Shown here piece after piece: positions 1,730 through 21,485 of a stretch of DNA of 26,761 bases. The stretch is from positions 2,235 through 28,995 of IMG/VR virus record IMGVR_UViG_3300030331_000970. One strand, written 5' to 3'. Position 1 is the stretch's first letter, and every line of letters begins with the position of its first letter. This DNA is from a virus. Both the position numbers and the translations under genes were made by a program. The notes below the pieces were generated by a model. That model worked only from the letters and a program-made list of their open reading frames with translations. It was not told where the DNA came from and searched no databases.

Positions 1730-2635
1730 ATGGCTATTTCACGCGCACAGCTCCTTAAAGAGCTACTTCCCGGCCTAAACGCATTGTTCGGCTTGGAATA
1801 CGATAACTATGAAAATGAGCATGCTGAGATTTACGAGACAGAAAATTCAGACAGAAGTTTTGAAGAAGAAGTCAAGTTGTCCGGTTTTGCAGCAGCCCCT
1901 GTGAAAGCAGAAGGCTCCTCATTAGCATATGACAATGCACAAGAGCATTACACTGCTCGCTACAACCATGAGACCGTTGCAATGGGTTTCTCTATCACTG
2001 AAGAAGCGATGGAAGACAACTTGTACGACTCATTGTCTGCTAGATATACAAAAGCACTAGCTCGCGCTATGGCTTACACCAAGCAGACTAAGGCTGCAGC
2101 GTTGCTGAATACAGGATTCACATCCTTCAGCTCGGGCGATGGCGTTTCATTGTTCAATACTGCTCACCCAACTGTGGGTGGCGGAACAAACGCTAACCGT
2201 CTAGCAGTAAATGCAGACTTGAACGAAACTTCACTAGAGCAAGCAGTTATCGATATCGCAGCGTTCACAGACGAACGTGGCCTATTGATCGCGGCTCGCC
2301 CTCGTAAGCTTATCGTTCCACCTGCGTTAATGTTCGTGGCAACAAGACTGCTACAGACAGAGCTTCGCACAGGTACAGCGGATAACGATACAAACGCATT
2401 GCGTTCAAATGGATCGATCCCTGAAGGCTACCGTGTGAATCACTATCTAACGGACACAGACGCATTCTTTATCACCACAGACATTCCAAACGGAATGAAG
2501 CACTTCGTGCGTACTCCAATGGCTACGGCTATGGACGGTGATTTTGATACAGGTAATGTTCGCTACAAAGCTCGTGAGCGTTACTCTTTTGGTGTATCAG
2601 ATCCGCTAGGGATGTTTGGTTCTCCCGGAGCATAA
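1730..2635 (+). CDS. Major capsid protein (HK97 fold)
   Basis: 301 residues, the usual size for a compact HK97-fold coat protein without a large processed N-domain. The start ATG has a near-consensus AAGGAGG 7-8 nt upstream, as expected for the most abundant virion protein. Visible features are a helical N-arm (AISRAQLLKELLPGLNALFG), an acidic E-loop-like region at residues 20-50, the central LFNTAHPTVGGG motif near residue 141, typical of HK97/Mu-type coat proteins, and the strand-rich C-terminal half with PRKLIVPPAL and RYKARERYSFGVSDPLG. The gene lies directly after the scaffold and decoration genes and is followed by an intrinsic terminator, so it ends a head operon. Confidence in the coat assignment is high. 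Subfamily placement is not claimed. Confidence 0.9.
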   Translation: MAISRAQLLKELLPGLNALFGLEYDNYENEHAEIYETENSDRSFEEEVKLSGFAAAPVKAEGSSLAYDNAQEHYTARYNHETVAMGFSITEEAMEDNLYDSLSARYTKALARAMAYTKQTKAAALLNTGFTSFSSGDGVSLFNTAHPTVGGGTNANRLAVNADLNETSLEQAVIDIAAFTDERGLLIAARPRKLIVPPALMFVATRLLQTELRTGTADNDTNALRSNGSIPEGYRVNHYLTDTDAFFITTDIPNGMKHFVRTPMATAMDGDFDTGNVRYKARERYSFGVSDPLGMFGSPGA

Positions 2636-5101: not shown

Positions 5102-5779
5102 ATGGCAGTAGTTACACCAGATTTACCTGATATATTCGAGGAAGCCTACGAACGTGCAGGAGTAGAACTAAACACAGGTTACGATCTTCGAACAGCAAGG
5201 CGTAGCCTTAATATCATGTTGCTTGAGTGGCAGAACAGAGGACTTAATCTGTTTACTATAGACGAGGGGACTCTAGCCATAGCTGCGGGTACAGTAACGT
5301 ATACCATGCCCGTAGATACCATAGATGTCATAGAGCATCACATACGAACTGGCACTGGTACTAGTCAGGTAGATACAGCCTTGGAGCGTATATCCGTGTC
5401 TAGCTATGCTGCCCAGTCTAACAAAAATACAACAGGAAAGCCTAGTCAGATATATGTACAAAGACTAGCTACAGAGACAAGAGTAACATTATGGCCTGTG
5501 CCAGACGCTGCATACACACTAGCTTATTATAGACTAAAAGGAATAGATGGACTGTCTTCAGGAGTTGGTACAACAGCAGCAGTGCCTCCCAGATTTGTCC
5601 CATGTCTAGTAGCTGGCCTTGCTTATCAAATAGCCATGAAAAAGCCTGAGTCAGCAGATAGAGTCGTTCCTTTAAAACAAGAGTATGAGTATCAGTTTGA
5701 GCTTGCAGCGGGTGAGGATGCAGAGACAGCTTCTATAAGATTTGTACCACACAATACATTTATTCTGGGGGGTGGATGA
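5102..5779 (+). CDS. Head-tail adaptor protein (P22 gp4-like)
   Basis: 225 residues. The helical N-terminus contains LRTARRSLNIMLLEWQNRGL and NLFTID (about residues 27-53), the hallmark of P22 gp4-type tail accessory factors that dock below the portal in podovirus-like virions. A beta-rich middle follows (TLAIAAGTVTYTMP; RVTLWPVPDAAYTLAYYRLK). A helical end (CLVAGLAYQIAMKKPESADR) resembles the membrane-less helical region of connector adaptors. The gene overlaps the next one by 4 nt. Together with the gp10-like gene at 21466 this supports a podovirus-type short tail. Family placement is by motif only. Confidence 0.75.
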   Translation: MAVVTPDLPDIFEEAYERAGVELNTGYDLRTARRSLNIMLLEWQNRGLNLFTIDEGTLAIAAGTVTYTMPVDTIDVIEHHIRTGTGTSQVDTALERISVSSYAAQSNKNTTGKPSQIYVQRLATETRVTLWPVPDAAYTLAYYRLKGIDGLSSGVGTTAAVPPRFVPCLVAGLAYQIAMKKPESADRVVPLKQEYEYQFELAAGEDAETASIRFVPHNTFILGGG

Positions 5780-7132: not shown

Positions 7133-7792
7133 ATGAACTATACAGAGTTAGTACAGGCAATACAGGACTACACAGAGAACACAGAGACTTCTTTTGTGAC
7201 TAATATCCCTACGTTTGTACGACAGGCAGAGGAGAAGATACTCCGTCAGGTTCTCATTCCAGAGCTTCGAAAAGCTGCTACTGGTAGCACAGTTGCTAAC
7301 TCTCAATATCTTGCTAGGCCAACAGACATGATTGCTGTGTACTCTATAGCTATACAGGACGGCAGTGGTAACTATAGCTATTTGCTAAATAAGAATGTTA
7401 CTTTTATGAAGGAAGCGTTTCCTGCATCAGACACAGGTTTACCAAAGTACTACGGTCAGTTTGTTGGTGGCACAACAAGTACACCGGGATATTTTATATT
7501 AGCCCCAACGCCAGACGCTGCCTATCTTGCTCAAATAAACTATTACTACGACCCACCATCTATAGTTACTGCAGGTACAACATATTTAGGTGACAATGCC
7601 GAAACAGCTTTGCTGTATGGTTCACTATTAGAAGCGTACTCATACATGAAGGGCGATACAGATCTCATGAACGAGTACAGAAAACAACATCAGCTCGCTA
7701 TGCAAGCCTTTACTAAAGTGGGTGGCTTACTGCAACAAGACGGTTATAGAGATGGCGAAGAGGGATACAGCAAAGACGAGGGCAATGTTTAA
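7133..7792 (+). CDS. Phage adaptor / head-tail connector protein (SU10-adaptor-like)
   Basis: 219 residues. The start MNYTELVQAIQDYTENTETS leads into a helical segment with FVRQAEEKILRQVLIPELRK. This is followed by a beta middle with YFILAPTPDAAYLAQINYYY and the helical stretch DNAETALLYGSLLEAYSYMK. This order is typical of adaptor proteins of short-tailed phages (SU10-type adaptor; T7 gp11-like). Length fits. It shows the same overall helix-sheet-helix plan as the gene at 5102, including a PDAAY motif (ILAPTPDAAYLAQINYYY versus LWPVPDAAYTLAYYRL), so the two may be distant paralogues that form successive rings under the portal. The 3' end overlaps the next gene by 8 nt. Confidence 0.75.
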   Translation: MNYTELVQAIQDYTENTETSFVTNIPTFVRQAEEKILRQVLIPELRKAATGSTVANSQYLARPTDMIAVYSIAIQDGSGNYSYLLNKNVTFMKEAFPASDTGLPKYYGQFVGGTTSTPGYFILAPTPDAAYLAQINYYYDPPSIVTAGTTYLGDNAETALLYGSLLEAYSYMKGDTDLMNEYRKQHQLAMQAFTKVGGLLQQDGYRDGEEGYSKDEGNV

Positions 7793-8078
7793 GTTTAATA
7801 TAGATATACCAAAAGAACCTATAGTTAATATACGAACTACAGAGAATAGAGGGTTTACACCTGATGAGGTGGCAGAGAGATGTGTAGAAAAGCTGATAAG
7901 CGTTTCCGACAATGCACATCCTGCTATTCGAGATCAGGCTCAAGCCTTTCAAAAGCACATGGAAAAGACGGTTGCATTTTATATGCGAGAAGCTATTCGC
8001 AGTGACCGCACAACCGTGTATAATGCCTTGAAAGACGCAGGGCATCCTAAACTTGCCGAGCTAATAAGGAGATTATGA
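7785..8078 (+). CDS. Conserved small helical phage protein
   Basis: 97 residues from ATG 7785 (MFKFNIDIPKEPIVNIR). An in-frame ATG at 7722 would add 21 residues that lie entirely inside the adaptor gene and look unlike protein. GAGGGC just before 7785 supports the shorter form. A short beta N-terminus precedes helices containing FTPDEVAERCVEKLISVSDN, AHPAIRDQAQAFQKHMEKTV and SDRTTVYNALKDAGHPKLAE. I recognise it as a recurrent marine-phage protein beside the adaptor gene but know no function. There is no membrane or signal segment. It overlaps the adaptor by 8 nt and precedes the fibre block by one nucleotide. Confidence 0.75.
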   Translation: MFKFNIDIPKEPIVNIRTTENRGFTPDEVAERCVEKLISVSDNAHPAIRDQAQAFQKHMEKTVAFYMREAIRSDRTTVYNALKDAGHPKLAELIRRL

Positions 8079-9270: not shown

Positions 9271-10254
9271 ATGACTATAAACAGAAATTTATCAAAGTTT
9301 GCTGCAAAAGTTACCTCTTCAGGGACTTATGACATTGTAGAAGATACTAGTCCTCAATTAGGCGGTAATCTTGATGTAAACGGTAATGCAATAGTATCAG
9401 CATCAAATGCCAACATTGCAATCACACCAGACGGCTCTGGTAAAGTAATCATCGATGGACTTTCCCATCCAACAGCAGATGGCAGCGCAGGACATGTCTT
9501 GAAGACAGACGGTTCTGGCAATTTAGGATTTGCATCTGTTGGCACACTTTCTGGTTCAGGAATCCAAGATGTAGTAGATGATTCTTCTCCACAGCTAGGT
9601 GGCAACCTAGACGTTCAAGCTAGAGAAATAAACACAAGTACATCTAATGGTAATATAAAACTTAATCCCAACGGGACTGGTTGTGTTGAGGTAATGGGAG
9701 ATGGCACTTCCAGTGGTACTGTCGGTGCAATACAACTTAATTGTTCAGTGAACAGTCACGGTGTAAAAATTCAAAGTCCACCCCACAGCGCGGGTTCTAC
9801 ATATACTCTTACACTTCCTGAAAATACTGGGAGTAATGGTCAGGCACTAACGACTAACGGTAGTGGTGTTCTTAGCTTTACAACAATATCAACCACCACA
9901 GACTTAAACGCTTTGAGTGCAGGTACAATCAACACAGCGAATGACAGCATAGCGTTTATTGATGCAGACGACAGCAACAACTCTAAAAAAGAATCTGTTG
10001 CTGACTTTTTAACAGCGATTGCAGGTTCTGGTATTACAGTATCAGGAAATCAGCTCACAGCATCTGGCGGTGGTGGAGGTGGCGGTGGAGCCACTGGTGG
10101 TGGTAGTGACGAAGTCTTCTATGAAAACGATCAGACAGTTACAACCAACTACACAATAACTGCCAGTCACAACGCCATGAGTGCAGGGCCGATAACAGTA
10201 AATAACGGTGTAACAGTAACAGTTCCTTCAGGAACTAGGTGGGTTGTAGTTTAG
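9271..10254 (+). CDS. Tail-fibre protein with SPQLGGNLD repeats
   Basis: 327 residues, ATG 9271. Two copies of the marine-phage fibre motif are present: YDIVEDTSPQLGGNLDVNGN near residue 20 and DVVDDSSPQLGGNLDVQ near residue 100. GHVLKTDGSGNLGF and GQALTTNGSGVLSF are the linker motifs usual in these fibres. A nine-Gly tract lies near residue 270. The C-terminal 45 residues (TVTTNYTITASHNAMSAGPI, ending VPSGTRWVVV) are a common fibre end domain in cyanophages and pelagiphages. The stop TAG shares its last base with the GTG start of the first propeller gene. Receptor contact or shaft function is inferred. Confidence 0.8.
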   Translation: MTINRNLSKFAAKVTSSGTYDIVEDTSPQLGGNLDVNGNAIVSASNANIAITPDGSGKVIIDGLSHPTADGSAGHVLKTDGSGNLGFASVGTLSGSGIQDVVDDSSPQLGGNLDVQAREINTSTSNGNIKLNPNGTGCVEVMGDGTSSGTVGAIQLNCSVNSHGVKIQSPPHSAGSTYTLTLPENTGSNGQALTTNGSGVLSFTTISTTTDLNALSAGTINTANDSIAFIDADDSNNSKKESVADFLTAIAGSGITVSGNQLTASGGGGGGGGATGGGSDEVFYENDQTVTTNYTITASHNAMSAGPITVNNGVTVTVPSGTRWVVV

Positions 10255-11417
10255 TGCCTGAAATTAAAGTAGATGCAGTTGTAAATTTAGCGGGTACAGG
10301 TAAGCCTAACTTTCCTGTCAGTCCCACGCATTCTGGTGGATCTGCTTTAAGTACTATGAATACTTACTCTTACACATCGTCAGCAACAGAACCAAGTAGC
10401 CCTAAGAACGGAGCTATCTGGTGGGACAGCGCCAACAGTAAAGTAATGGTCTACATAAATGGCGATTTCAAAGAGATAACTTTAAATACTGATTATCCTG
10501 TGGATGGCATTGCTTGGGGCGGAGACAGGGGTCTTGCTGCAGGAGGGGTAACTACTCAATCATCTTCTTATGATGATATTTTATACTTTAATATTGCTGG
10601 TAGTGGAGGAGGCTCTGCAAGTTTTGGTGACTTACAATTATTTAGGTATCAAGGAGGTGCAGCAGGTTCTTCTACAAGAGCCTTGTTTGCGGGCGGTTAT
10701 ACCCCCGCTGGAGCAAGAGCAAATGAGATAGATTATGTTACTCCGTCAACTATTGGTAATAGTACAGATTTTGGTAATTTAACTGTAGGTAGAAGCGCTA
10801 ATTCTGCTTGCAGTAATGGAACAAGGGCGCTTTTTGGAGGTGGATATGGCCCTAGTTCATATAGAGATATTGTTGATTATGTAACAGTAGATACCACTGG
10901 TAACGCTACCGACTTTGGAGATCTTAGCGGAGTAGGGTCAGGTCATTCAGATGGTGCAGGTGGGGATACAACAAGAGCTGTTTTTGCGGGAGGTATTGGA
11001 TCTTATTACTCAGTTACAATCGACTATTTTACTTATGCAACAACAGGCAATGCAACAGATTTTGGAGATCTTCTCTATTCTGCTGCTAGAAACATGGCAG
11101 TTTCAGATGCAACCAGAACAGTTTTTGCGGGAGACTCTCCTAGTAGTTATCACACCCCAGCAGGTAGAAATATAGAGTATATAACAACACAAACAACAGG
11201 TAATGGCACTGACTTTGGTGATTTAACTAACCAATATTCTATGGCTACTGCTTGTGGAAATGCCGTTAGAGGGGTATTTATAGGAGATGTTACCACAAGT
11301 CCTTACACTGGAATGGAGCTTATAACCATTCAAACCACTGGTAATTCCTCTGATTTTGGAGATTTAGCAGAAAACAGAGGTTATCAAGGTATGGCCGCAT
11401 CAGGAGCAGCATCATGA
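10254..11417 (+). CDS. Kelch-like beta-propeller protein 1 (anchor type A1)
   Basis: 387 residues from GTG 10254. This start aligns with its paralogues (xxxIKVDxI); an in-frame GTG 15 nt upstream would only add residues inside the fibre gene. Residues 1-75 are an anchor-like domain with TEPSSPKNGAIWWDSANSKV. Residues 88-387 hold six kelch-like blades whose FGDL or FGNL cores sit at F124, F173, F221, F270, F321 and F368, a period of 47-51. The blade consensus is TRALFAGG, variable loop, IEYITxxTTGNATDFGDL. The first blade starts WGGDRG and the chain ends in a partial strand (SGAAS), as in propellers closed by an N/C-terminal strand. There are no catalytic copper-oxidase residues as in galactose oxidase. 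Probable receptor-binding or decoration protein (inference). Confidence 0.85.
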   Translation: MPEIKVDAVVNLAGTGKPNFPVSPTHSGGSALSTMNTYSYTSSATEPSSPKNGAIWWDSANSKVMVYINGDFKEITLNTDYPVDGIAWGGDRGLAAGGVTTQSSSYDDILYFNIAGSGGGSASFGDLQLFRYQGGAAGSSTRALFAGGYTPAGARANEIDYVTPSTIGNSTDFGNLTVGRSANSACSNGTRALFGGGYGPSSYRDIVDYVTVDTTGNATDFGDLSGVGSGHSDGAGGDTTRAVFAGGIGSYYSVTIDYFTYATTGNATDFGDLLYSAARNMAVSDATRTVFAGDSPSSYHTPAGRNIEYITTQTTGNGTDFGDLTNQYSMATACGNAVRGVFIGDVTTSPYTGMELITIQTTGNSSDFGDLAENRGYQGMAASGAAS

Positions 11418-12565
11418 CAGAATTAAAAGTAGATAACATAACCAACCTAGCAGGATCAGGTAAACCAAACCTTCCTGTTCAACCGACTGTAGGAAGCAAC
11501 GCAGCTATAAGCACACTGAACACGCACGAATATACATCTTCTGGTACAGCGCCTAGCAATCCTAAAAATGGAGCTTTGTGGTGGGACAGCGCTAATAATA
11601 ATGTTAATGTTTATATAGACGGTGGGTTTAAAAAAATTCAACTAAACGCTTCTGCAGCATCTGGTAACCCTTGGAGTGGTAGTAGAGCTATTTTTGGAGG
11701 GGGAGATTTTAACGTCAATGGAGCGCGAAGCAATGCCATTGATTACAGCGCTATTCAAACAGCAGGAAACGCTGTTGATTTTGGTGATTTGACAATAGCA
11801 AGGGACTGGATAACATCTGGTAGCAATAAAACTAGAGGTTTATTTCTTGGGGGCTTGCCCACCGCTACTTTCGAAACAATAGATTACATAACTATAGGAA
11901 CCACAGGAAATGCTACCGATTTTGGTGATTTAGTTTTTGGTCTTTATAATCACACATCATGTTCTGATGGCACTAGGGCTTTAACATGGGGTGGAAACAG
12001 GTACAACGTTTCTCCTACTTATCATAATACCATAATGCAAACTGTTATTGCCACAACAGGTAATTCTACAGATTTTGGTGATATGACTGTCAATGGTAGA
12101 TATACTTCTAGTTGCAGCGATGCTACAAGATCCGTTTGTGCTGTAGGGGAGACTAACAACAGCGGTTATGAAAATAAAATGGAATATATAACTACAGCCT
12201 CACCCGGAAACGCCACTGACTTCGGAGACCTATCTTCGGCAAGAGGCCAGATGGCTGGCACAAATGATGCTACAAGAGGTATATTTGTAGGCGGTTGGGA
12301 TGGTAGCAATCGTTACAATAATATAGAATACATAACGATCCAAACCGCAGGGAACGGAACTGATTTTGGTGATGCGAGTAACGCTATAGTTCGCGCTGCT
12401 TGTTGCGCCGATACAACCAGAGCATTAATTTCAGGCGGTTACGAAGAAACTGCTGCTAGACTTAATGTTATAGAGTATATAACTGTTCAAACCCCCGGAA
12501 ATGCAACAGATTATGGTGATATGACTTCGGACAGGTATGAACATACCTCAATGTCAGGAGACTAG
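11414..12565 (+). CDS. Kelch-like beta-propeller protein 2 (anchor type A1)
   Basis: 383 residues. ATG 11414 overlaps the previous TGA (ATGA); AGGAG for it lies within the previous gene's SGAAS codons. The anchor (TELKVDNITNLAGSGKPNLP) is closely related to that of propeller 1, so these two are a sister pair. Blade cores lie at F123, F170, F221, F270, F318 and Y367. The repeat begins NPWSGSRAIFGGG. Variable loops after each Gly pair differ strongly from propeller 1 (for example DFNVNGARSN, LPTATFET). It ends MTSDRYEHTSMSGD without the final Ala-Ser. Same inferred role; differing loops would give a different binding surface. Confidence 0.85.
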   Translation: MTELKVDNITNLAGSGKPNLPVQPTVGSNAAISTLNTHEYTSSGTAPSNPKNGALWWDSANNNVNVYIDGGFKKIQLNASAASGNPWSGSRAIFGGGDFNVNGARSNAIDYSAIQTAGNAVDFGDLTIARDWITSGSNKTRGLFLGGLPTATFETIDYITIGTTGNATDFGDLVFGLYNHTSCSDGTRALTWGGNRYNVSPTYHNTIMQTVIATTGNSTDFGDMTVNGRYTSSCSDATRSVCAVGETNNSGYENKMEYITTASPGNATDFGDLSSARGQMAGTNDATRGIFVGGWDGSNRYNNIEYITIQTAGNGTDFGDASNAIVRAACCADTTRALISGGYEETAARLNVIEYITVQTPGNATDYGDMTSDRYEHTSMSGD

Positions 12566-12567
12566 CG

Positions 12568-13731
12568 ATGAGTGAAATAGACAGAATAATAACGATTACA
12601 GACAGAGCGGGTACAGGCGCTCCTAATTTTACCTTTGGTGTAAACTTCGCAGGATCTGACAGTGGTATAAGTCCTCATAAACACACAGAGGGAAACACAG
12701 AACCTAGCAGCCCTAGTAATGGAGACACTTGGTGGGATACCGACAACGACCTCTATAAAGTCTATATGGACAACGAGTGGAAAGACTGGTTAGGCACTTC
12801 TGCTGCGGCAGCTTCTCATTATGGTGATAGAGGACACAAGGCGGGTGTAAGCCATACTGGTACGAATAGAATAGAGTATTGGGATATGACCTCTGCAGGA
12901 AATGCAGCAGACTTTGGTGACCTTACACTTGGAGATTATGCTAGACAGGGTATGGCTAGTGATGGAACACGCATATACATGCCTCTCTATAAAAACACAA
13001 CACAAATAGATTTTTGGGCTTCTGCTACTTTAGGCAACGCTTCGGATTATGGAGATTTGCAATACGGTACTTTTGATAGCGACTGTGAAAGCGACGGGTC
13101 TAAAATGCTTTTGGTTCATGGGTACGCACGAAGCGGTAGCACTAACTATGCAGATGGCATTGGTAACAAGATAGAGCAACTTACTGTAGGAACAGGCAAT
13201 GCAGGAGTTACTGCAACAGATTTTGGAAATCAATTAACAAGCGGTCTTTATTATATGCGATGTGTATCAAACGCGACAAGGATGTTAATAGGGGGAGGTA
13301 TTACATCTGGTATTCAAGACACTATAGCCTATGTAACTTTTGCAACAGCAGGAAACGCTGTAGATGCAGGAGATTTAAATGTAGGGCGTTACGCTCATGC
13401 ATCGGCAGGATCAGGAGCAGGGGATATAGGGTGTTTTGCAGGAGGTAATTACGTCCTGCCGGGTGGTTATACCAATTCAATAGATCAAAAAAATCTTACA
13501 AACACAAACAATGCTACAGACTTTGGTGATTTGGCGACAACACCTTATTATTTTGACGGATGCTCCAACGCTACTAAGGGTCATTTTTTAGGGGGTTATG
13601 ACTCCGCAGCAAGTGCAGGAAGTAACGCAATACAACAAATTACCTTCGCTACAGCCGGTAATGCCTCAGATTTTGGTGATTTGTTAGATGCAGGTTGGCA
13701 TGTAGCAGCATCTTCAGGAGCGGCCTCATGA
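12568..13731 (+). CDS. Kelch-like beta-propeller protein 3 (anchor type B)
   Basis: 387 residues, ATG 12568, two bases after the previous stop, with AGGAG 9 nt upstream. It has a different anchor, type B: MSEIDRIITITDRAGTGAPN, then GSDSGISPHKHTEGN, TEPSSPSNGDTWWDTDNDLY and NEWKDWLGTS. Blade cores lie at F116, Y161, F219, A267, F319 and F369. This member is the most degenerate: blade 3 has an insertion (GTGNAGVTATDFGNQL), blade 4 has AGD instead of FGD, and blade 5 has TNTNNATDFGDL. The His pair in SPHKH is shared only with propeller 5. It ends ASSGAAS. Same inferred virion role. Confidence 0.85.
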   Translation: MSEIDRIITITDRAGTGAPNFTFGVNFAGSDSGISPHKHTEGNTEPSSPSNGDTWWDTDNDLYKVYMDNEWKDWLGTSAAAASHYGDRGHKAGVSHTGTNRIEYWDMTSAGNAADFGDLTLGDYARQGMASDGTRIYMPLYKNTTQIDFWASATLGNASDYGDLQYGTFDSDCESDGSKMLLVHGYARSGSTNYADGIGNKIEQLTVGTGNAGVTATDFGNQLTSGLYYMRCVSNATRMLIGGGITSGIQDTIAYVTFATAGNAVDAGDLNVGRYAHASAGSGAGDIGCFAGGNYVLPGGYTNSIDQKNLTNTNNATDFGDLATTPYYFDGCSNATKGHFLGGYDSAASAGSNAIQQITFATAGNASDFGDLLDAGWHVAASSGAAS

Positions 13732-14924
13732 GTACAATAAAAGTAGATACAATAAAGAATAGAAGCAATGCAATTAACCTGCCCAATAACTTCAAGATAG
13801 ATGGAGATAGTATCGTACAAGGACATACTGTTTCTGCCACTGAACCTAGTAGTCCTGAAAAAGGTGATTTCTGGTGGGATAGTGCTAACAATAAACTCTA
13901 TCGATATATCAATAGTGAGTTTAAAGAACTTAGTTTAGTTGCAGCTGATCCATTTTGGGGCGGGGATAGAGCATTAAGAGCGGGTCGCAGGGGTTCTGGA
14001 GTTGCGGGTAGCACTCTAAATTTAGATTATTGGGATATAACTACTTTAGGCAACGCTGCTGACTTTGGAGATTGCGATAACAGCGTAAACGGTACAAACT
14101 CAACGAGTTCTGATCATTCTGCCTCAAACAGAAGCAGGGCGATTGTATCCAGAAACCGTAATAGTAATAACACATATGACTATTTTACTATTCCAATACC
14201 GGGAAATTCAGCCTTTTTTGGTAACGCTCTAGAAACCGCTAGAAGTGGTGCGGGAATTGGTGATGGCACTTATGCAGTTTTTGCGGGTGGTTATATTAAT
14301 GGCGGCCCCACTGGTACTGGTTATCGTAACGACATAAATGTTTTTACTATTGATACAACAGGCAATGCTTCAGATTTTGGTAATCTTCGTAGAATCACTG
14401 GTTTTTCTGGTGGGGCAGGTAATGCTAGTAGAGGCACTATATTTGGTGGTCAAGCATATGTTAGCAGTTATTATTATGAAGATGAGATACAATATATTCC
14501 GTTGGGTGGCGTTACCGGAAATGCTTCAGACTTTGGTGATATGTCAAGTGGAGCTTATAGGGTCACCGCTGCCTCAGATGCGACAAGAGCTGTTGCAATT
14601 TTAGGAAATGCAGGGCCTAATTTTGGAGGTTCTTCTCCGACTAATAAAATGGAGTACATAACTGTTGATACTACAGGAAACTCTACGGATTTTGGTGATC
14701 TAAATAATTTTAATGCTAATAGAACGGAACGATCCGCAGCATGTGAAAATGAAACAAGAATATGTATTTCTGGTGGTGAAACATCTACTTCAGGTGGCAC
14801 AGTTAATGAGTATACCAATGAAATTATGTACATTACTACGCAAACAACAGGCAATGCTCAAGACTTTGGTGACCTATTAGATGGTTTGGATCAAGGTTTT
14901 TCTTCTTCGGGAGATGCTTCTTGA
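13728..14924 (+). CDS. Kelch-like beta-propeller protein 4 (anchor type A2)
   Basis: 398 residues, the longest of the six. ATG 13728 (MSTIKVDTIKN) overlaps the previous TGA. An in-frame TTG at 13695 is possible but would add 11 residues lying inside propeller 3 and is not supported by the paralogues. Anchor A2 contains LPNNFKIDGDSIVQGHTVSA then TEPSSPEKGDFWWDSANNKL. Blade cores lie at F113, F164, F217, F269, F322 and F380, with blades up to 58 residues because loops are longer (YINGGPTGTGYRND, QAYVSSYYYED). Aromatic- and Gly-rich loops are typical of carbohydrate-contacting surfaces (inference). It ends SSSGDAS and overlaps the TTG of the next gene. Confidence 0.85.
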   Translation: MSTIKVDTIKNRSNAINLPNNFKIDGDSIVQGHTVSATEPSSPEKGDFWWDSANNKLYRYINSEFKELSLVAADPFWGGDRALRAGRRGSGVAGSTLNLDYWDITTLGNAADFGDCDNSVNGTNSTSSDHSASNRSRAIVSRNRNSNNTYDYFTIPIPGNSAFFGNALETARSGAGIGDGTYAVFAGGYINGGPTGTGYRNDINVFTIDTTGNASDFGNLRRITGFSGGAGNASRGTIFGGQAYVSSYYYEDEIQYIPLGGVTGNASDFGDMSSGAYRVTAASDATRAVAILGNAGPNFGGSSPTNKMEYITVDTTGNSTDFGDLNNFNANRTERSAACENETRICISGGETSTSGGTVNEYTNEIMYITTQTTGNAQDFGDLLDGLDQGFSSSGDAS

Positions 14925-16093
14925 GTGATGTTGTTGGCATAGAAAAGATCACAGACAAGGCAGGTACAGGTGCGCCTGACTTTACTAATGGTTTTAACAT
15001 AGCAGGATCTGATAGCGGTATAAGTCCTCATAAACATACAGAAGGTGCAACAGAACCTTCTAGCCCATCAAATGGAGATGCATGGTTAGACACAGACAAC
15101 AATATATACAAAGTTTATATTGATGGAGAATGGAAAGACTGGCTAGGAACTTCCACTTCCTCACCTACGTTTAATTGGGGTGGATCTAGGGCTGTTTATA
15201 TAGGACGCTTTAACTACCCGTCTCCATATGATCGTGAAATAGACTACTTTGATATATCAAGCTCAAGTAACGCTGCTGATTTTGGAGATCTAACTCAAGC
15301 TAGGGAAGATGGAGCAGGAGTTAGTAACGGAACTAGAGCTGTATTTGCAGGAGGTAAAGTTAGCTCAACTAAGTACAACACAATAGACTACATAACTACT
15401 GCAACAACAGGAAATGCTACTGACTTTGGTGATTTAACCACATACCCTTTTAGTAGCACTGGTGCGAGTAGCAGGGATTCACTTGCATCTGCTGGCAACA
15501 ATACCTACGGTTTGTTTATGGGAGGATATCTACATGGTGGTGGGAGTGGTAATATTATTGATTATATTACAATAGCCAACACAGGCAACGCTACCGACTT
15601 TGGAGATCTCACCGCCGCCGATCATGGAGGTTCTGCTTTTAACGATGCTACCCGCGCTGTGTACGTTCAAGGTACAGACACATCTAAGAACAATATAGAA
15701 TATGTGTCTATTGATACTCCGGGAAATGCAACTAACTTTGGAACCCAAACCACTGCACACTCTTTTGAACATGCTTCTTGTGCTGATGCTACAAGAGGTT
15801 TGACTTCGGGTGGAATAAGTAGCGCACCTTTTTTAAACCATATAACTTATTTTACTACTCAAAGCGCAGGTAATGGAACTGATTTTGGAAATCTAACTGC
15901 TCGATGTAGACATGGCTCGGCATCAGATGGTACTTATGGTACTTTTATAGGAGGTTATGCCACTTCTAGTAGCCCATACCTTATAAATGTAATAGAAAGA
16001 GTGACTATCCAAACTCCCGCAAATGCTACCGATCATGGAGACATGCAAAGTATATCCCAATATATTGACGCGACATCAGGATCAGCTTCATGA
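14921..16093 (+). CDS. Kelch-like beta-propeller protein 5 (anchor type B)
   Basis: 390 residues from TTG 14921 (TTGA overlap with the previous stop). GGGAG about 7 nt upstream and alignment of MSDVVGIEKITDKAGTGAPD with propeller 3 decide this start; the ATG at 14928 is out of frame. The type B anchor (GSDSGISPHKHTEGA; TEPSSPSNGDAWLDTDNNIY; WKDWLGTS) is nearly identical in plan to propeller 3. Six blades follow, opening FNWGGSRAVYIGR, with cores NAADFGDL, NATDFGDL, NATDFGDL, NATNFGTQ, NGTDFGNL and NATDHGDM. Drift is strongest in blades 4 and 6. The C-terminus TSGSAS overlaps the start of propeller 6. Same inferred role. Confidence 0.85.
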   Translation: MSDVVGIEKITDKAGTGAPDFTNGFNIAGSDSGISPHKHTEGATEPSSPSNGDAWLDTDNNIYKVYIDGEWKDWLGTSTSSPTFNWGGSRAVYIGRFNYPSPYDREIDYFDISSSSNAADFGDLTQAREDGAGVSNGTRAVFAGGKVSSTKYNTIDYITTATTGNATDFGDLTTYPFSSTGASSRDSLASAGNNTYGLFMGGYLHGGGSGNIIDYITIANTGNATDFGDLTAADHGGSAFNDATRAVYVQGTDTSKNNIEYVSIDTPGNATNFGTQTTAHSFEHASCADATRGLTSGGISSAPFLNHITYFTTQSAGNGTDFGNLTARCRHGSASDGTYGTFIGGYATSSSPYLINVIERVTIQTPANATDHGDMQSISQYIDATSGSAS

Positions 16094-17166
16094 GTACAAT
16101 TAAAGTAGACGAAATATTTGGTGATCTTCCTACAGATGCTGTTGACTTACCTAACAAATTTACAGTGGACGGTGCTTCCGTAGAACAGGGATATACTGAG
16201 TCTGGCACTGAACCATCTTCTCCTAGCAACGGAGACTATTGGTGGGACACTGGTAACGATAAACTATACAGGTATATGGACGGTGGGTTTAAAGAACTTG
16301 GTTTAGCGCCTAGTGGTAATCCTTGGAGTGGTAACAGGGCAATAGTTTTTAGTGCTGCAGCTAATGAAATCCAATACTTTGATATAACTAGCCCCGGCAA
16401 TGCTACTGATTTCGGTGACATGAGTGAGCCAGTAGATTATATAGGGGCAGCGGGAAGTAGAACAAGAGCTATTAGGGCTTGTGGGACTTCATACCCCGGC
16501 AATACTAGACGTAATACATTAGAATATGTAACTCCGTCCACAACAGGAAATGCTCAAGACTTTGGTGACTCTACTTCAGTTAGAAATGCTTTAGCGTGTT
16601 GTAGTAATGGAACCCGAATGCTTACAGGTGGTGGTTATAATGGATCAGCTTATATAAATATTGTTGATTACATTACTGTCGATACAACGGGTAATGCAAT
16701 AGATTTTGGTGATCTTTCAGCAACAGGTCAAAGTTCTTGCGGTGCAGGAGAAGACGCAACAAGGGCAGTGTTTGGTGGCGGTATAGGCGGCAACACTGAT
16801 ACAATAGAGTACTTTACATTTGCAACTCCGGGAAACGCCACAGATTTTGGTAACTTAATAGGAAATATGTACAGAAACTCAGCTTGCTCAGATGCTACAA
16901 GAGTATATTTTACAGGGAACGGAACCGACATAGAGTATATTACAACTCAAACAACAGGAAACGCTACTGATTATGGAAATCTAACCCAAAGCTATATTTA
17001 CCACGGCTGCTGTGAGAATGAGACTATAGGTACTACCATGTGTCCCTCAAGTACTAATGTAAATATAGACTATTTTACAATGTCTACTAGTGGAAACGCT
17101 ACAGATTTTGGTGATCTTATTACCGCCAGAACAGGGGCCGCCGCAACTTCAGGGTTACCATCTTAA
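16090..17166 (+). CDS. Kelch-like beta-propeller protein 6 (anchor type A2)
   Basis: 358 residues, the shortest member; ATG 16090 in an ATGA overlap. The A2 anchor (MSTIKVDEIFGDLPTDAVDL; then TEPSSPSNGDYWWDTGNDKL) matches propeller 4. There are six blades, starting NPWSGNRAIVF, with cores NATDFGDM, NAQDFGDS, NAIDFGDL, NATDFGNL, NATDYGNL and NATDFGDL. Loops are short in blades 1 and 5, giving the compact size. The end (TSGLPS) departs from SGAAS, and AAAGGAG for the next gene lies after the stop rather than inside the coding end, consistent with this being the last gene of the coupled array. Confidence 0.85.
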   Translation: MSTIKVDEIFGDLPTDAVDLPNKFTVDGASVEQGYTESGTEPSSPSNGDYWWDTGNDKLYRYMDGGFKELGLAPSGNPWSGNRAIVFSAAANEIQYFDITSPGNATDFGDMSEPVDYIGAAGSRTRAIRACGTSYPGNTRRNTLEYVTPSTTGNAQDFGDSTSVRNALACCSNGTRMLTGGGYNGSAYINIVDYITVDTTGNAIDFGDLSATGQSSCGAGEDATRAVFGGGIGGNTDTIEYFTFATPGNATDFGNLIGNMYRNSACSDATRVYFTGNGTDIEYITTQTTGNATDYGNLTQSYIYHGCCENETIGTTMCPSSTNVNIDYFTMSTSGNATDFGDLITARTGAAATSGLPS

Positions 17167-17177
17167 AGGAGAAAAAA

Positions 17178-18023
17178 ATGGGAAAGACTAAAACTAAAAA
17201 GAAGACTAACGTAGTAACGAAACCAATTACATTTTCGTTACCTATAGAAGCGTCTGAGAATATCAATCAGGTAGCTGCTGCGCGGGTGGCAGAAAAGTTA
17301 CCAGAGATAGATCAGGCAACCAGAGCTTTTGATCGTAATAACTCAGCGACAACTTTGTCTATGATGACACTCACTATGCTCAACGGTCACTCTCCTATGC
17401 GTATGCTTCGTCAGATTACAGCAGAGGTAGAGAAACGTAAGATGGCGCTTGCAGAGGCGCAGGTCAACCATGCTGAGAAGCGTGTAGAGCTACTGGAGCT
17501 TGAAGAGGCTGATGATATTGTTTCTGAGGCTAAACTAAAAGCAGGTAGACATGGGCTAACAATGATGGAGCATAAGATAAACGGCTCTATCAAAGACATA
17601 GCAGTGCTTATTGATAGCTACGAGAACATAAAAGAGAAGTGGGATATAGACGAGTGGGACGAAGAAGCCTTTGAAAGAGAAGAGAAGCGTCACCATGTGC
17701 GTAGGGGCTTTGAGCTTATGTACCGAAACCTGATGGATGGTGGCAGAGTTTCTACTTCTACAATAGAATACATGCAGCAATATGGTGTCCACCCACAGGT
17801 AGCTATGACTGAAGTGTCTGGGTACATACAGCACACTGCACAGAAGATAAAAAACCATGAATTACCTCACTCCAATGATTTAGAGGAGTTCATGGATCTA
17901 ATGGCGGATAAATATTATAAGAATGCAGATAAAACTGCTGAAAGAATATTTGGTAAATCAGATTTTCTGAACCCCGAATATATGTTAAGACTAGAAAAAA
18001 CGGAGAAAAAAGATGATACTTGA
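17178..18023 (+). CDS. Coiled-coil virion-associated protein, function unknown
   Basis: 281 residues. AAAGGAGAAAAAAATG gives a strong start. The first 15 residues are Lys/Thr-rich. Residues 55-80 contain ATTLSMMTLTMLNGHSPMRM, a conserved-looking segment in marine-phage homologues as I remember them. Residues 78-125 are a strongly predicted coiled coil (EVEKRKMALAEAQVNHAEKR onward). The C-terminal half is helical and charged, with HHVRRGFELMYRNLMDGG and a Met-rich region. No signal or membrane segment is present. Position between fibre genes and further tail genes suggests a structural or internal virion protein. I cannot name a function. It overlaps the next gene by 11 nt. Confidence 0.75.
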   Translation: MGKTKTKKKTNVVTKPITFSLPIEASENINQVAAARVAEKLPEIDQATRAFDRNNSATTLSMMTLTMLNGHSPMRMLRQITAEVEKRKMALAEAQVNHAEKRVELLELEEADDIVSEAKLKAGRHGLTMMEHKINGSIKDIAVLIDSYENIKEKWDIDEWDEEAFEREEKRHHVRRGFELMYRNLMDGGRVSTSTIEYMQQYGVHPQVAMTEVSGYIQHTAQKIKNHELPHSNDLEEFMDLMADKYYKNADKTAERIFGKSDFLNPEYMLRLEKTEKKDDT

Positions 18024-18327
18024 ATACAAAATGCATATGACCGCAGGAGGTATGATGACTCCTGTTTGGGTAGAGGACGGTGGATACTGGGCTAAATCAG
18101 ATCACACCAAAATTGGCTGGTCACCAGATGAGGCTGATAGAGAATACTATATCCCAGATACAGTTACAGAGCTTACAGCGACAGAGCTGGAGGCTAGAGT
18201 TTTAGCAATGCATAGCGCTGATCCTTTTTTAAAGATGGCAGAAAATCCAGAAGATGATCCCGTAGAAATGACTACTGATGAAGTTAAAGCACAAGTCGCT
18301 GCTTGGGTATCTGCAAGAGAGTCATAG
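18013..18327 (+). CDS. Small conserved marine-phage protein
   Basis: 104 residues, ATG 18013, starting inside the end of the previous gene, with GGAG about 7 nt upstream. The N-terminal half reads like a small beta domain: MTPVWVEDGGYWAKSDHTKI, then GWSPDEADREYYIPDTVTEL, with aromatic residues (W19, Y25, W26, W36) that could form a binding face. The C-terminal half is helical (TATELEARVLAMHSADPFLK; TTDEVKAQVAAWVSARES). I recognise the GWSPxEADREYYIPDTV segment as recurrent in marine phages but know no function. It is probably co-translated with the coiled-coil gene. Confidence 0.7.
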   Translation: MILEYKMHMTAGGMMTPVWVEDGGYWAKSDHTKIGWSPDEADREYYIPDTVTELTATELEARVLAMHSADPFLKMAENPEDDPVEMTTDEVKAQVAAWVSARES

Positions 18328-18337
18328 GGACACTTAG

Positions 18338-19324
18338 ATGTTTGGCTTTCACCCAGTAGCATCGGCTCCGATAGCTGATGATCAGGCAGGAGTAGTCGTT
18401 CCGATTACTGTCTCCGTTACTGGGTTAAGCGCGACAGCCTCTACAGCCGCTACTACGGTAACAGGTGCTGTAGACACACCACAGACAGGTCTTGGCTCTA
18501 CAGGTGGAGTTGGAACTCTTACCGTCACAGGCATTGGTAATACTAGTGCCACAGGCGTTGCAGCCACTGGCTCTGTAGGCTCGGCAATAGCAAGCCTACC
18601 TGATCAAGCATCAGTATCGGGTCTCGAAGCAACTACAGGCATAGGCTCAGTCACAACAGCTAACCAGACGATTGTTTCCGTAACAGGCGTATCATCTAGC
18701 ACAACTTCTGGTTCTGTCACTGTCGAAGGCTTGGCAAACGTCCCTGCAACGGGTCTTGAGGCTACTGTTTCTGTAGGCTCTCCAGTTATACTTGCAGACA
18801 CTGATATTGATGTCACAGGTGTGAGCGCCACGGCCTCTGTAGGAGCAGCCTCTGCAAGCATAGCTGTAGATGTGTCTGTGACAGGCATAGCAGCCAACAG
18901 TTCTACGAATGACGTAACTATAGTTGGCGCAGCCAGTATACCTGCAACAGGACTGCAGGGTAGCGCTAATGTGGGAACTATCGCTGTAGCGGCAAATGCA
19001 AGCACATCAGTCACAGGCGTAAGCGCAACGAGTGCTACTTCTTCAGTCAATCCAGTTTCAAGTGTAGATGTTACAGGCGTAGGCGCTACTGGTGGCGTAG
19101 GAAGTGCATCAATAGTGGGTATCGCTTCAGTACAAGTAACTGGCGTCTCTGGCCTTGGTGTGGTCGGCACAACTAGACATTATACACCAGTAGACTTAAT
19201 AGGAGTGCCTGTAGACCCATACTCAGCCTTGGTTGTAGACGTTCCAGTGGATGATGTGTATACTGAGGTTGATTTAACTGAAGAACCAGAACTTGTATGG
19301 ACAGATTTAGACGTAGCAGCATAG
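18338..19324 (+). CDS. Virion protein with about twelve VTG-VSAT repeats
   Basis: 328 residues. The start MFGFHPVASAPIADDQAG is a typical opening of marine-phage structural proteins. Residues about 28-275 are some twelve tandem units of about 21 residues with core (V/A)TG(V/L)xATxxVGS, including VTGLSATAS, ATGVAATGSVGS, VSGLEATTGIGS, VTGVSATASVGA and VTGVGATGGVGS. The composition, almost only Val, Thr, Gly, Ala, Ser and Ile, suggests stacked beta strands (solenoid or Ig-like shaft). The last 45 residues are acidic with YTPVDLIGVPVDPYSALVVD and end in VWTDLDVAA. Shorter runs of the same unit occur in the genes at 5776 and 23388. Possible fibre shaft or spacer; function inferred. Confidence 0.8.
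   Translation: MFGFHPVASAPIADDQAGVVVPITVSVTGLSATASTAATTVTGAVDTPQTGLGSTGGVGTLTVTGIGNTSATGVAATGSVGSAIASLPDQASVSGLEATTGIGSVTTANQTIVSVTGVSSSTTSGSVTVEGLANVPATGLEATVSVGSPVILADTDIDVTGVSATASVGAASASIAVDVSVTGIAANSSTNDVTIVGAASIPATGLQGSANVGTIAVAANASTSVTGVSATSATSSVNPVSSVDVTGVGATGGVGSASIVGIASVQVTGVSGLGVVGTTRHYTPVDLIGVPVDPYSALVVDVPVDDVYTEVDLTEEPELVWTDLDVAA
18419..19162 (+). repeat. Tandem (V/A)TG(V/L)xATxxVGS coding repeats
   Basis: About twelve divergent copies of a roughly 63-nt unit inside the gene at 18338, visible at protein level and partly at DNA level (acaggcgt and acaggtg words recur at the same phase). The composition bias also opens a long antisense reading frame that is not considered a gene. 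Confidence 0.75.
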
Positions 19325-19333
19325 GAGCATAGC

Positions 19334-20071
19334 ATGCCCAGTACATTTACAACAAACACAGGTATAGAAAAACCTGCCAGTGGTGAGCAAGCTGGAAGCT
19401 GGGGCATCACTGTAAATACGAACAGTGACATAATTGATCGAGCTATCAATGGTGTTGTTTCTTTAAATCTTGTAGGAACATCCAGCAATCTTACAACAAG
19501 CAATGGTGCTACATCAGACGGACAAAACAAAGTTCTTCTTTGTAGCGGCACTTTAGCAGCGGCTCATACTATCACCATACTCCCTGCAGACGCACAGAAA
19601 GTTTATTATGTAAAGAATGATGCAACTAAAATAGTTACGTTTTCTCAAGGCTCTGGCGCAACCACAGCAAACATAGCCGTAGGTTCTTTCGCAATCATAT
19701 ACGCTGACGGTAACAACAATGTTGTGAACTTATCGCTTAGTTCTGAGTTAGGTCAGCTTAAACAGAACGGTGAACCTGTAACATCAAGTGCTGACGAGCT
19801 TAACGTGCTTGATGGAGTGACTACTACTCTAGAAGCGGCTGATCTAAATCTACTAGATGGCGCACAACCAAATACCGTTGTTGCTTCAAAGGCTATTGTT
19901 TATGGGGCTAGCGGTGAAGTCAAAGCAAATACAATAGCTTTGGGTAATTGGACTATTACTGAATCTGGTAGTGAATTAAAATTTGCATACAGTGGAACTA
20001 ATAGGTTTAAGATAACATCTACAGGAGCAACAGTAGCTGAAGGTGATGTAACAGCGTTTGGAAGTGCATAA
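19334..20071 (+). CDS. Tail-fibre protein with LDG repeats
   Basis: 245 residues. AGGAGCATAGCATG gives a good start. The N-terminus PSTFTTNTGIEKPASGEQAG, then SWGITVNTNSDIIDRAINGV, is the conserved attachment domain of many marine-phage fibres. A beta-rich region follows. Residues 152-176 hold two TSSADELNVLDG/LEAADLNLLDG repeats, the well-known A(E)LNxLDGV linker of fibres. The C-terminal 45 residues are a strand-rich end (NWTITESGSELKFAYSGTNR and on). The stop shares a base with the next ATG (TAATG), coupling it to the Gly-rich adhesin, consistent with a fibre-plus-tip pair. Confidence 0.8.
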   Translation: MPSTFTTNTGIEKPASGEQAGSWGITVNTNSDIIDRAINGVVSLNLVGTSSNLTTSNGATSDGQNKVLLCSGTLAAAHTITILPADAQKVYYVKNDATKIVTFSQGSGATTANIAVGSFAIIYADGNNNVVNLSLSSELGQLKQNGEPVTSSADELNVLDGVTTTLEAADLNLLDGAQPNTVVASKAIVYGASGEVKANTIALGNWTITESGSELKFAYSGTNRFKITSTGATVAEGDVTAFGSA

Positions 20072-20811
20072 TGGCTTTACCTACCACAGGCCCATTAAGT
20101 TTGAACCAAATTCACGTTGAAGTAAACGGTACTAGCGGAACTATATGTTCTCTAAACGATGCAGATATTAGAAGTCTTCTCAATCCAGACAAGGGCGCTA
20201 ATCAGGCAAACTCTATAAGCGAGTATCGTGGCGCTTCTCACACTGTTACTTTTACTTATGAACTTATAGGTGGTGGCGGTGGTGGAGGTAATGGTCGTGA
20301 AGATAAGGGTGACGGTGTAAATCGTGGAGCCACTGGAGGAAGCTCTAGCATCGCAGCTTCTGGTATTTCAACAATTACCGCATCTGGAGGACAAGGCGGT
20401 AGAGCAGGTATGTACGTTCCAAATGTTAATGAGAATTTAAGGGTCGGACAGGCATCCCATTATGGTAACGGAGGCACTGCAGGGGCGCACCTACCGGGGA
20501 ATGCAGGTAGAGGTGGCGATGCTCCTTCAACGTCTTATGGCGCAGGTGGCGGTGGCGGTGGCGGTGACAATAGAAATAACCCCTACGATCAAACAGGTGC
20601 AGGAGGTGAAGGCGGATTTGCTTCAACTAGGTTAACAGGCACAGCAACAGTTCAAAGCGGAACTACTGTTACAATAACTATCGGTGGCGGTGGCGCGGGT
20701 CGAAATGTAGAAAATCCGGGTGGTAATGGCGCAGGAGGATTTGCAAAAATTACAGCTAACGGCAACGTGACCAACTTTCCATCCAGTGGCAGCATAACAT
20801 TAACAGGTTAA
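20071..20811 (+). CDS. Glycine-rich tail adhesin
   Basis: 246 residues, start overlapping the previous stop. Residues 1-55 (ALPTTGPLSLNQIHVEVNGT; ADIRSLLNP; SISEYRGAS) are a conserved fibre-attachment module. From residue 66 on, Gly dominates, with seven-Gly runs at 67-73 and 159-165 and GGGGAG at 205-210, separated by variable segments such as MYVPNVNENLRVGQASHYGN and DNRNNPYDQTG. Alternating Gly-rich arches and variable loops recall distal adhesins such as gp38 of Salmonella phage S16, where loops between polyglycine helices bind the receptor (family knowledge; fold equivalence is inference). The C-terminal 50 residues return to beta structure (VTITIGGGGAG; SGSITLTG). Confidence 0.75.
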   Translation: MALPTTGPLSLNQIHVEVNGTSGTICSLNDADIRSLLNPDKGANQANSISEYRGASHTVTFTYELIGGGGGGGNGREDKGDGVNRGATGGSSSIAASGISTITASGGQGGRAGMYVPNVNENLRVGQASHYGNGGTAGAHLPGNAGRGGDAPSTSYGAGGGGGGGDNRNNPYDQTGAGGEGGFASTRLTGTATVQSGTTVTITIGGGGAGRNVENPGGNGAGGFAKITANGNVTNFPSSGSITLTG

Positions 20812-20819
20812 GGAATAAT

Positions 20820-21485
20820 ATGTCTGAATATCGTGAAACAAAAGCAAGGTTCTGTGTTGGTAATGATTTTAGGTTTTTAACTCCTGCACTTGATAACTTA
20901 TCACCTGATATAAGAAGTCAATTAGTAGAGCTTATATATTCTTGGCGTGATGGTGTGGAGAGCATTTGTGTTGTAGCAGAAAGCCTTGATTGCCTAAGAA
21001 CTATGTTAAATGGTAATGTGCCGCTCGAGATTTCAGAAGCTAGAATGTTTCCACATCCAAGATATGGTGTAGACTTAGAAAGTATTGGGACTGACAATCT
21101 AAGATTGTATAGAGATGATATAGAAAGAGAAGGCATTTCCCTAGTTGGTTTTAAGTTTGATTCTGAAGGAAATTTGACTGAGAGGAAAGATTATTGGAAT
21201 GACAAAACAAGTAATAAAACTCGTGTATTAATAGATAGATACGATGCTTCTGACAACTTAATCTCTTCTAAAGAGCCAGAAATAATGGTGACAAAAGATG
21301 ATTTTTTGGGCAGTAGTGAAATAGCGGATAAGGTCGAACAAATAGCTAATGAAAAAAGATATGACGTAGTTTGGCTGAATAAAGTTAACGCTAAACAATC
21401 TTATATTAGAATAAGAAGACCACATGTAATGTTAGGGGCGCATATAGAATACTTAAAGGCAAAACATGGTTTTACAGAAACTTGA
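20820..21485 (+). CDS. Unrecognised 221-residue protein between adhesin and gp10-like gene
   Basis: ATG 20820 has AAGGAATAAT upstream. I do not recognise a family. The protein is soluble-looking and charged. The N-terminal part is alpha/beta with FCVGNDFRFLTPALDNLSPD and a helical stretch (LVELIYSWRDGVESICVVAE). Near residue 78 is FPHPRYGVDLESIG. The middle is hydrophilic and beta-hairpin-like (GFKFDSEGNLTERKDYWNDK), and the C-terminus is basic (SYIRIRRPHVMLGAHIEYLK). There is no membrane, signal or low-complexity segment, unlike its fibre neighbours. It overlaps the gp10-like gene by 20 nt. A fibre-assembly chaperone is one possibility from its position after an adhesin, but this is only an inference. 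Confidence 0.75.
   Translation: MSEYRETKARFCVGNDFRFLTPALDNLSPDIRSQLVELIYSWRDGVESICVVAESLDCLRTMLNGNVPLEISEARMFPHPRYGVDLESIGTDNLRLYRDDIEREGISLVGFKFDSEGNLTERKDYWNDKTSNKTRVLIDRYDASDNLISSKEPEIMVTKDDFLGSSEIADKVEQIANEKRYDVVWLNKVNAKQSYIRIRRPHVMLGAHIEYLKAKHGFTET

Follow-up and report, generated by a model that had tools for sequence, protein, structure and literature searches.

Several parts of the system described here are known from other phages: modular tail fibres and propeller adhesins have both been described, but separately. In S. aureus phage 80alpha, gp61 uses a propeller as its receptor-binding platform; however, this propeller has five blades and belongs to a single trimeric protein with stem and tower domains that binds wall teichoic acid (PMC7048315). 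Giant phages, including CBB (CBB_550/552/554) and phages of Yersinia and Pseudomonas, carry several neighbouring kelch genes, and CBB_552 is present in the CBB virion, but these are jumbo myophages, and the part of their description consulted mentions neither anchor classes nor an array grammar nor any exchange of heads (PMC5259590). Marine metaviromic islands (Mizuno et al. 2014) include pelagiphage-like tail fibres and C1q proteins with a conserved N-terminus and a variable receptor-recognition domain, although these are single genes detected by under-recruitment of reads, and kelch repeats, propellers and tandem arrangement are unmentioned (PMC3909814). In the short-tailed phage SU10, six long and six short trimeric tail fibres sit on the adaptor and nozzle, and six fibres dock on the dodecameric adaptor via their trimeric N-termini (PMC9509320). 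The stretch analysed here (the window; 26,761 nucleotides, positions 2235-28995 of the 28,995-bp linear IMG/VR virus record IMGVR_UViG_3300030331_000970, probably a fragment) holds a tandem array of six genes, g1 to g6, each pairing an N-terminal anchor with a six-bladed kelch head. With a probability of roughly 70%, these genes encode the multi-headed receptor-binding apparatus of a short-tailed phage of the SU10/HTVC023P type, whose heads are reassorted between phages. Full-text searches, which covered open-licence papers, turned up no earlier account of a tandem array with three anchor classes and exchange of single heads.

Positions 10254-17166 are filled exactly by six adjacent open reading frames on the same strand, whose anchors fall into classes A, B and C:

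10254..11417, + strand: g1, class A anchor (about residues 1-86), six-bladed kelch head, GTG start, 387 amino acids
11414..12565, + strand: g2, class A anchor, six-bladed head, ATG start, 383 amino acids
12568..13731, + strand: g3, class B anchor, six-bladed head, ATG start, 387 amino acids
13728..14924, + strand: g4, class C anchor, six-bladed head, ATG start overlapping the g3 stop, 398 amino acids
14921..16093, + strand: g5, class B anchor, six-bladed head, TTG start, 390 amino acids
16090..17166, + strand: g6, class C anchor, six-bladed head, ATG start, 358 amino acids

The preliminary description, made from the sequence before this analysis, had placed six tandem paralogues of 358-398 residues in this interval, which is correct to the base and to the residue. 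For g4, a mechanically assigned TTG start at 13695 was rejected as too far upstream and the ATG at 13728 was taken. Four of the five inner junctions have a four-base overlap and one has a 2-bp gap, while the GTG of g1 at 10254 overlaps the stop of the upstream gene by one base. In a search within the record, g1 and g3-g6 matched g2 with E-values of 1e-25 to 1e-82; given these values and the predicted folds of g2 and g3 (below), the resemblance is not due to chance. Six repeat units could be cut from every protein, giving the 36 blades claimed earlier, and the spacing of 47-51 residues claimed for the blade cores of g1 was recovered (49, 48, 49, 51 and 47). The proposed core GNATDFGDL holds in general but is degenerate in two blades, reading GGSASFGDL in g1 blade 1 and carrying a four-residue insertion in g3 blade 3. 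The proposed anchor motif PSSPxNGxxWWD is common to the six genes but not uniform, its versions being PSSPKNGAIWWD, PSNPKNGALWWD, PSSPSNGDTWWD, PSSPEKGDFWWD, PSSPSNGDAWLD and PSSPSNGDYWWD.

AlphaFold2 models of g2 and g3, built with alignments of relatives, show six four-stranded blades with the same strand pattern (g2, model m6e7381666bfd, mean predicted local distance difference test score (pLDDT) 88.5, head mostly 90-98; g3, model m58a9bf346fc6, mean pLDDT 86.2). The g2 head is predicted to form the closed ring of four-stranded blades of a kelch beta-propeller, and Foldseek aligned it with solved six-bladed kelch domains at template modelling scores (TM, target) of mostly 0.83-0.91, well above 0.5, with E-values down to 3e-19; the best Protein Data Bank (PDB) matches were the designed protein SAKe6 (0.90) and KLHL12/KEAP1 (0.84-0.91). 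Among viral models, the matches were an uncharacterised protein of an uncultured phage (33% identity) and kelch-named phage and poxvirus proteins. The six-bladed propellers proposed in the preliminary description are thus backed by AlphaFold2 for two of the six proteins and by homology for the other four. A Pfam scan found no kelch family at the curated score (the best, Kelch_1 in g2 only, reached 13 bits against a cut-off of 20.1), no kelch Pfam model matched any of 74 family members at E<=0.01, and searches of the PDB with sequence profiles of six or 74 members gave no match. Pfam matches to OxoDH_E1alpha_N were discounted; in the window proteins they span 11 residues of the repeat core. The fn3 family was matched by 17 of the 74 aligned relatives.

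Each repeat begins with strand B (TRGVFxGG), continues through C (NxIDYVTI) and D (NATDFGDL) and ends in strand A (xxACSDG). In KLHL20, blade I is closed by the C-terminal strand A (PMC6720452); because the window repeat also ends in strand A, the head is expected to be a self-closing cassette, and by this strand order the propeller should close on itself. The window heads share with KEAP1, KLHL12 and SAKe6 the six four-stranded blades, the GG doublet, a C-terminal strand order implying that blade 1 is closed, and variable BC and DA loops, but they are 10-16% identical to these proteins and are fused to a phage anchor, not to a BTB domain.

Each protein appears to be an N-terminal anchor of about 80 residues followed by a self-closing head. 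The window anchors, ordered AABCBC, are 58% (g1/g2), 71% (g3/g5) and 57% (g4/g6) identical within classes and 34-46% identical in all other pairs; the heads are 36-54% identical without any such pairing, those of g3 and g5 reaching 37% against 71% for their anchors. On a tree of 79 anchors the class label needs 4 changes against a shuffled mean of 37.5, and class C lies on one side of a branch with support 93, few columns being available and the inner forks being weak. For the heads, the tree requires 32 changes of that label against 36.4 when shuffled. Mean identity within and between anchor classes is 58 and 40% for the anchors, and 40.0% and 39.2% for the heads. Judged from these comparisons, anchors track class and position and heads do not, so that the two parts have evidently had separate histories.

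The heads also differ between phages that have nearly the same anchors. Among 181 between-contig anchor pairs at least 80% identical, which were taken over all loci and are not independent of each other, the heads are at most 60% identical in 161 pairs, 60-80% in one and at least 80% in 19. Across four phages, N-terminal anchors that are 75-97% identical carry C-terminal domains that are mostly 22-54% identical. All six window anchors are 85-92% identical to those of locus L010, while the heads of g1 to g6 are 46, 93, 38, 38, 96 and 54% identical, and the non-matching heads of L010 are no closer to the window than paralogues are. Locus L329, on a contig binned in a Porticoccaceae metagenome-assembled genome (MAG), has the same anchor set (75-89%) and shares only the g3 head (85%). 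Locus L172 matches the window at 96.7% nucleotide identity over 2.5 kb, from about position 8000 through the g1 anchor, after which only anchor islands of about 250 bp match; its first head is not a propeller and has a weak Laminin_G_3 match. Other heads stand on related anchors in L098 and L287 as well, and the anchored genes as a whole comprise 175 with propellers and about three genuine exceptions. Similar heads also occur on unlike anchors (L108/L110, heads 87% and anchors 42% identical; L098/L180, 86 and 39%; L154/L156, 98 and 49%).

Synonymous divergence (dS) dates these exchanges relative to the backbones. Between the window and L010, dS is 0.36 for the anchor and 0.07 for the head of g2, and 0.63 and 0.06 for those of g5; shared heads have a dS 5-10 times below that of their own anchors and were therefore exchanged more recently than the backbones split. 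Gradual head divergence by positive selection was rejected, since identity distances are bimodal and shared heads have a lower dS than their own anchors. The divergence pattern is one of whole-head replacement, not of the scattered point changes considered for mutagenesis by a diversity-generating retroelement, and a search for RVT_1 (reverse transcriptase) gave no match in the 28,995-bp record, a fragment. Chimaeric assembly is possible for any single contig but unlikely to explain so many. The comparisons thus indicate that a head is exchanged as one complete cassette and passes horizontally from phage to phage while the anchors stay put. The earlier suggestion of several binding specificities and a recombination reservoir gains support from sequence and dS, and is sharpened to whole-head cassettes behind conserved anchors. 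The hetero-oligomeric spike that was also suggested earlier would fit the three recurring anchor classes.

Variation within the heads is concentrated in the BC and DA loops, which make up the ligand face of kelch domains. In an alignment of 1494 blades from 249 heads, conservation is seen in the strands and in the NATDFGDL turn, and entropy is 3.0-3.9 bits at BC-loop positions 9-16 and 3.1-3.9 in the D-A segment (38-43) against 0.1-2.5 at most strand positions; in solved kelch domains the ligand surface is formed by these same loops (PMC6720452). The ratio of nonsynonymous to synonymous divergence (dN/dS) is about 0.1-0.2 for anchors in most comparisons, indicating purifying selection. For heads in recent pairs it is mostly 0.1-0.7, exceeding the anchor value in several pairs, with no clear positive selection.

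At least 485 relatives were found in IMG/VR. Of 306 distinct complete genes, 268 have six blades, 24 have twelve and one has eighteen, so six blades are the unit of evolution. The genes with twelve blades (two fused propellers; L331, L333 and about two dozen IMG/VR genes) lack the PSSP anchor, as does the gene with eighteen (L035). Although the preliminary description considered the tandem expansion the most unusual system of the window, such arrays occur commonly across this group of marine phages. A survey of homologue number and order, which it had proposed, gave arrays of one to eleven genes, three being the commonest size (38 of 81 loci in the first scan plus the window); these counts are minima, as contig ends cut many loci. 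Anchor orders recur and include ABC, AABBCC, ACBB, ACABBBC and ABCBC, classes being assigned by best match to the window anchors (L019 and L110 were moved from B to A by the tree), and nearly every array with window-like anchors begins with A. Tblastn searches of the phage collection with g1, g2, the head of g5 and the gene downstream of the array returned nothing or only the anchor motif (P-SSM2 and similar records). Matches in bacterial genomes do not point to a cellular family: they are few and mostly on MAG contigs, and L329 carries the array of the window phage.

The gene junctions have a recurrent layout, exemplified by that between g1 and g2:

11400..11417, + strand: junction motif TCAGGAGCAGCATCATGA, in which the SGAAS codons hold AGGAG 7 nt before the next start, which overlaps the stop

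A similar layout, with variants, is found near 12568, 13728, 14921 and 16090. The conserved C-terminal SG(A/S)AS is encoded in the window as TCAGGAGCxGCxTCATGA or near variants, with an AGGAG-like site 7-8 nt before the next start. We read this as an arrangement in which a head swapped between anchor and stop would leave the downstream gene translatable. In L117 and L114 the AGGAG-like site lies at or beyond the stop, and SG is therefore probably retained for structural reasons as well. Scans for promoters and terminators gave results near the shuffled expectation.

The array lies within a tail module, with the following genes around it:

1730..2635, + strand: major capsid protein, 67-69% identical to those of Pelagibacter phages HTVC023P and HTVC027P
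5102..5779, + strand: SU10_adaptor family protein (PF24175, 8.5e-13)
7133..7792, + strand: second SU10_adaptor family protein, short-tailed phage neck (PF24175, 9.4e-21)
9271..10254, + strand: tail-fibre-like gene (327 amino acids, SPQLGGNLDVNG repeats; phrog_31104, 2.9e-28; phrog_5342 tail fibre, 1.1e-9; phrog_677, 1.9e-7)
17178..18023, + strand: conserved gene of 281 amino acids after the array; propeller genes are present in 71 of the 80 loci with its relative

Tail-fibre PHROGs thus lie upstream, together with two SU10-type adaptor genes, and homologues of HTVC023P/027P tail-module genes lie on both sides. The capsid protein is also 72% identical to that of Synechococcus phage MinM2. The label "gp10-like" given earlier to the gene upstream of the array is backed by one weak PHROG match. 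In the cultured phage HTVC023P, four tandem paralogues (gp59-gp62) directly follow a distant relative of the 8548-9261 gene (E-value 4e-5), and a relative of the 8080-8535 gene with 61% identity lies a short way before them; the matching slot therefore holds another head type. These proteins resemble those of the window in tandem order and MSxIKVDxI-like N-termini, but their heads are glycine-rich and without propeller blades. They span 16242-21938 of that phage (L251), are annotated as hypothetical, have long glycine-rich C-terminal domains and form an adhesin-like tandem array.

Other features of the neighbourhood were recorded. The presence of two different SU10_adaptor-family genes in one phage is one of them. 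The product of 17178-18023 is rich in lysine and glutamate, is up to 97% conserved between contigs, belongs to no Pfam family, drew no match from the phage collection, and might help to assemble the heads. A glycine-rich protein of 246 residues with a ALPTTGPLSLNQIHVE N-terminus (20071-20811) is a further candidate adhesin. A small DUF6321 protein (PF19846, 3543-3833) is 77-85% identical to its HTVC023P/027P counterparts, most neighbours being far less conserved, and its approximately 75 residues recur as the C-terminal part of several PHROG families that differ widely in length.

The receptor-binding reading is favoured by the fold, the tail-module locus, the head exchange, the loop variability and the precedent of CBB_552 in a virion. 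Under it, the six genes would encode tail adhesin subunits, all six of which would be present in the virion. The anchor of about 80 residues would dock on a site of the tail or a fibre, and the six-bladed head would present a binding face whose BC and DA loops may contact a host surface ligand (a glycan or an outer-membrane protein). Anchors A, B and C may each have a docking site of their own or may assemble into a hetero-oligomer, and recombination would proceed through the conserved anchor islands. The SGAAS end and the next start would together make up a ribosome-binding junction, so that a swapped head retains translational coupling. We give even odds to the fuller proposal of a combinatorial array, in which kelch and, rarely, other heads are shuffled via anchor islands and ribosome-site junctions among ordered A/B/C docking addresses; the virion would then show several specificities at once and alter its repertoire one head at a time.

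Several observations weigh against the receptor-binding reading. The three-class rule does not hold everywhere, as some related arrays have no recognisable B or C anchors and some loci (L119, L136) carry just one propeller gene. Swapping is not seen in every pair either, since anchor and head are both shared between a few loci. Model confidence is low over anchor residues 1-39 (pLDDT 45-59) and the docking mode is not visible, and no head homologue was found in the phage collection, hence no isolate to compare.

Propellers might instead decorate the virion, coating the tail or capsid for stability or loose binding of glycans or particles, with head variation reflecting recognition escape or drift. 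Decoration proteins can carry adhesive folds, and the anchors are short and lack a long fibre shaft. Nevertheless, decoration seems unlikely given an array flanked by a tail-fibre-like gene on one side and other tail genes on the other, four adhesin-like paralogues at the matching place in HTVC023P and variability concentrated on the ligand face.

Head recombination is real, as would also be expected if one or a few of the six genes were displayed at a time and the others fed heads into an expressed site. Silent cassettes, however, would need no intact anchors, whereas every copy has its own anchor and start codon, g2-g6 also have a Shine-Dalgarno-like site, and the anchors are under purifying selection. 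In addition, window heads never recur at another position in the three closest relatives (best 59%). A silent reservoir is thus quite improbable. A fixed hetero-oligomer, in which A, B and C build one spike, array size reflects stoichiometry and swaps alter a single composite binding surface, would suit the ABC, AABBCC and AABCBC arrays and the leading position of A and is in part compatible with the receptor-binding reading, but it is very improbable in view of the unequal class numbers in ACBB, ACABBBC and ABCBC and the independent change of single heads.

If the receptor-binding reading holds, a tandem multi-anchor array with single-head reassortment would provide marine phages with a pelagiphage-like capsid with a genetic mechanism for fast, stepwise change of host range. 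The anchor classes would predict the number of different docking sites on the tail, and the heads, with their conserved frame and variable loops, would constitute a large natural library of kelch scaffolds.

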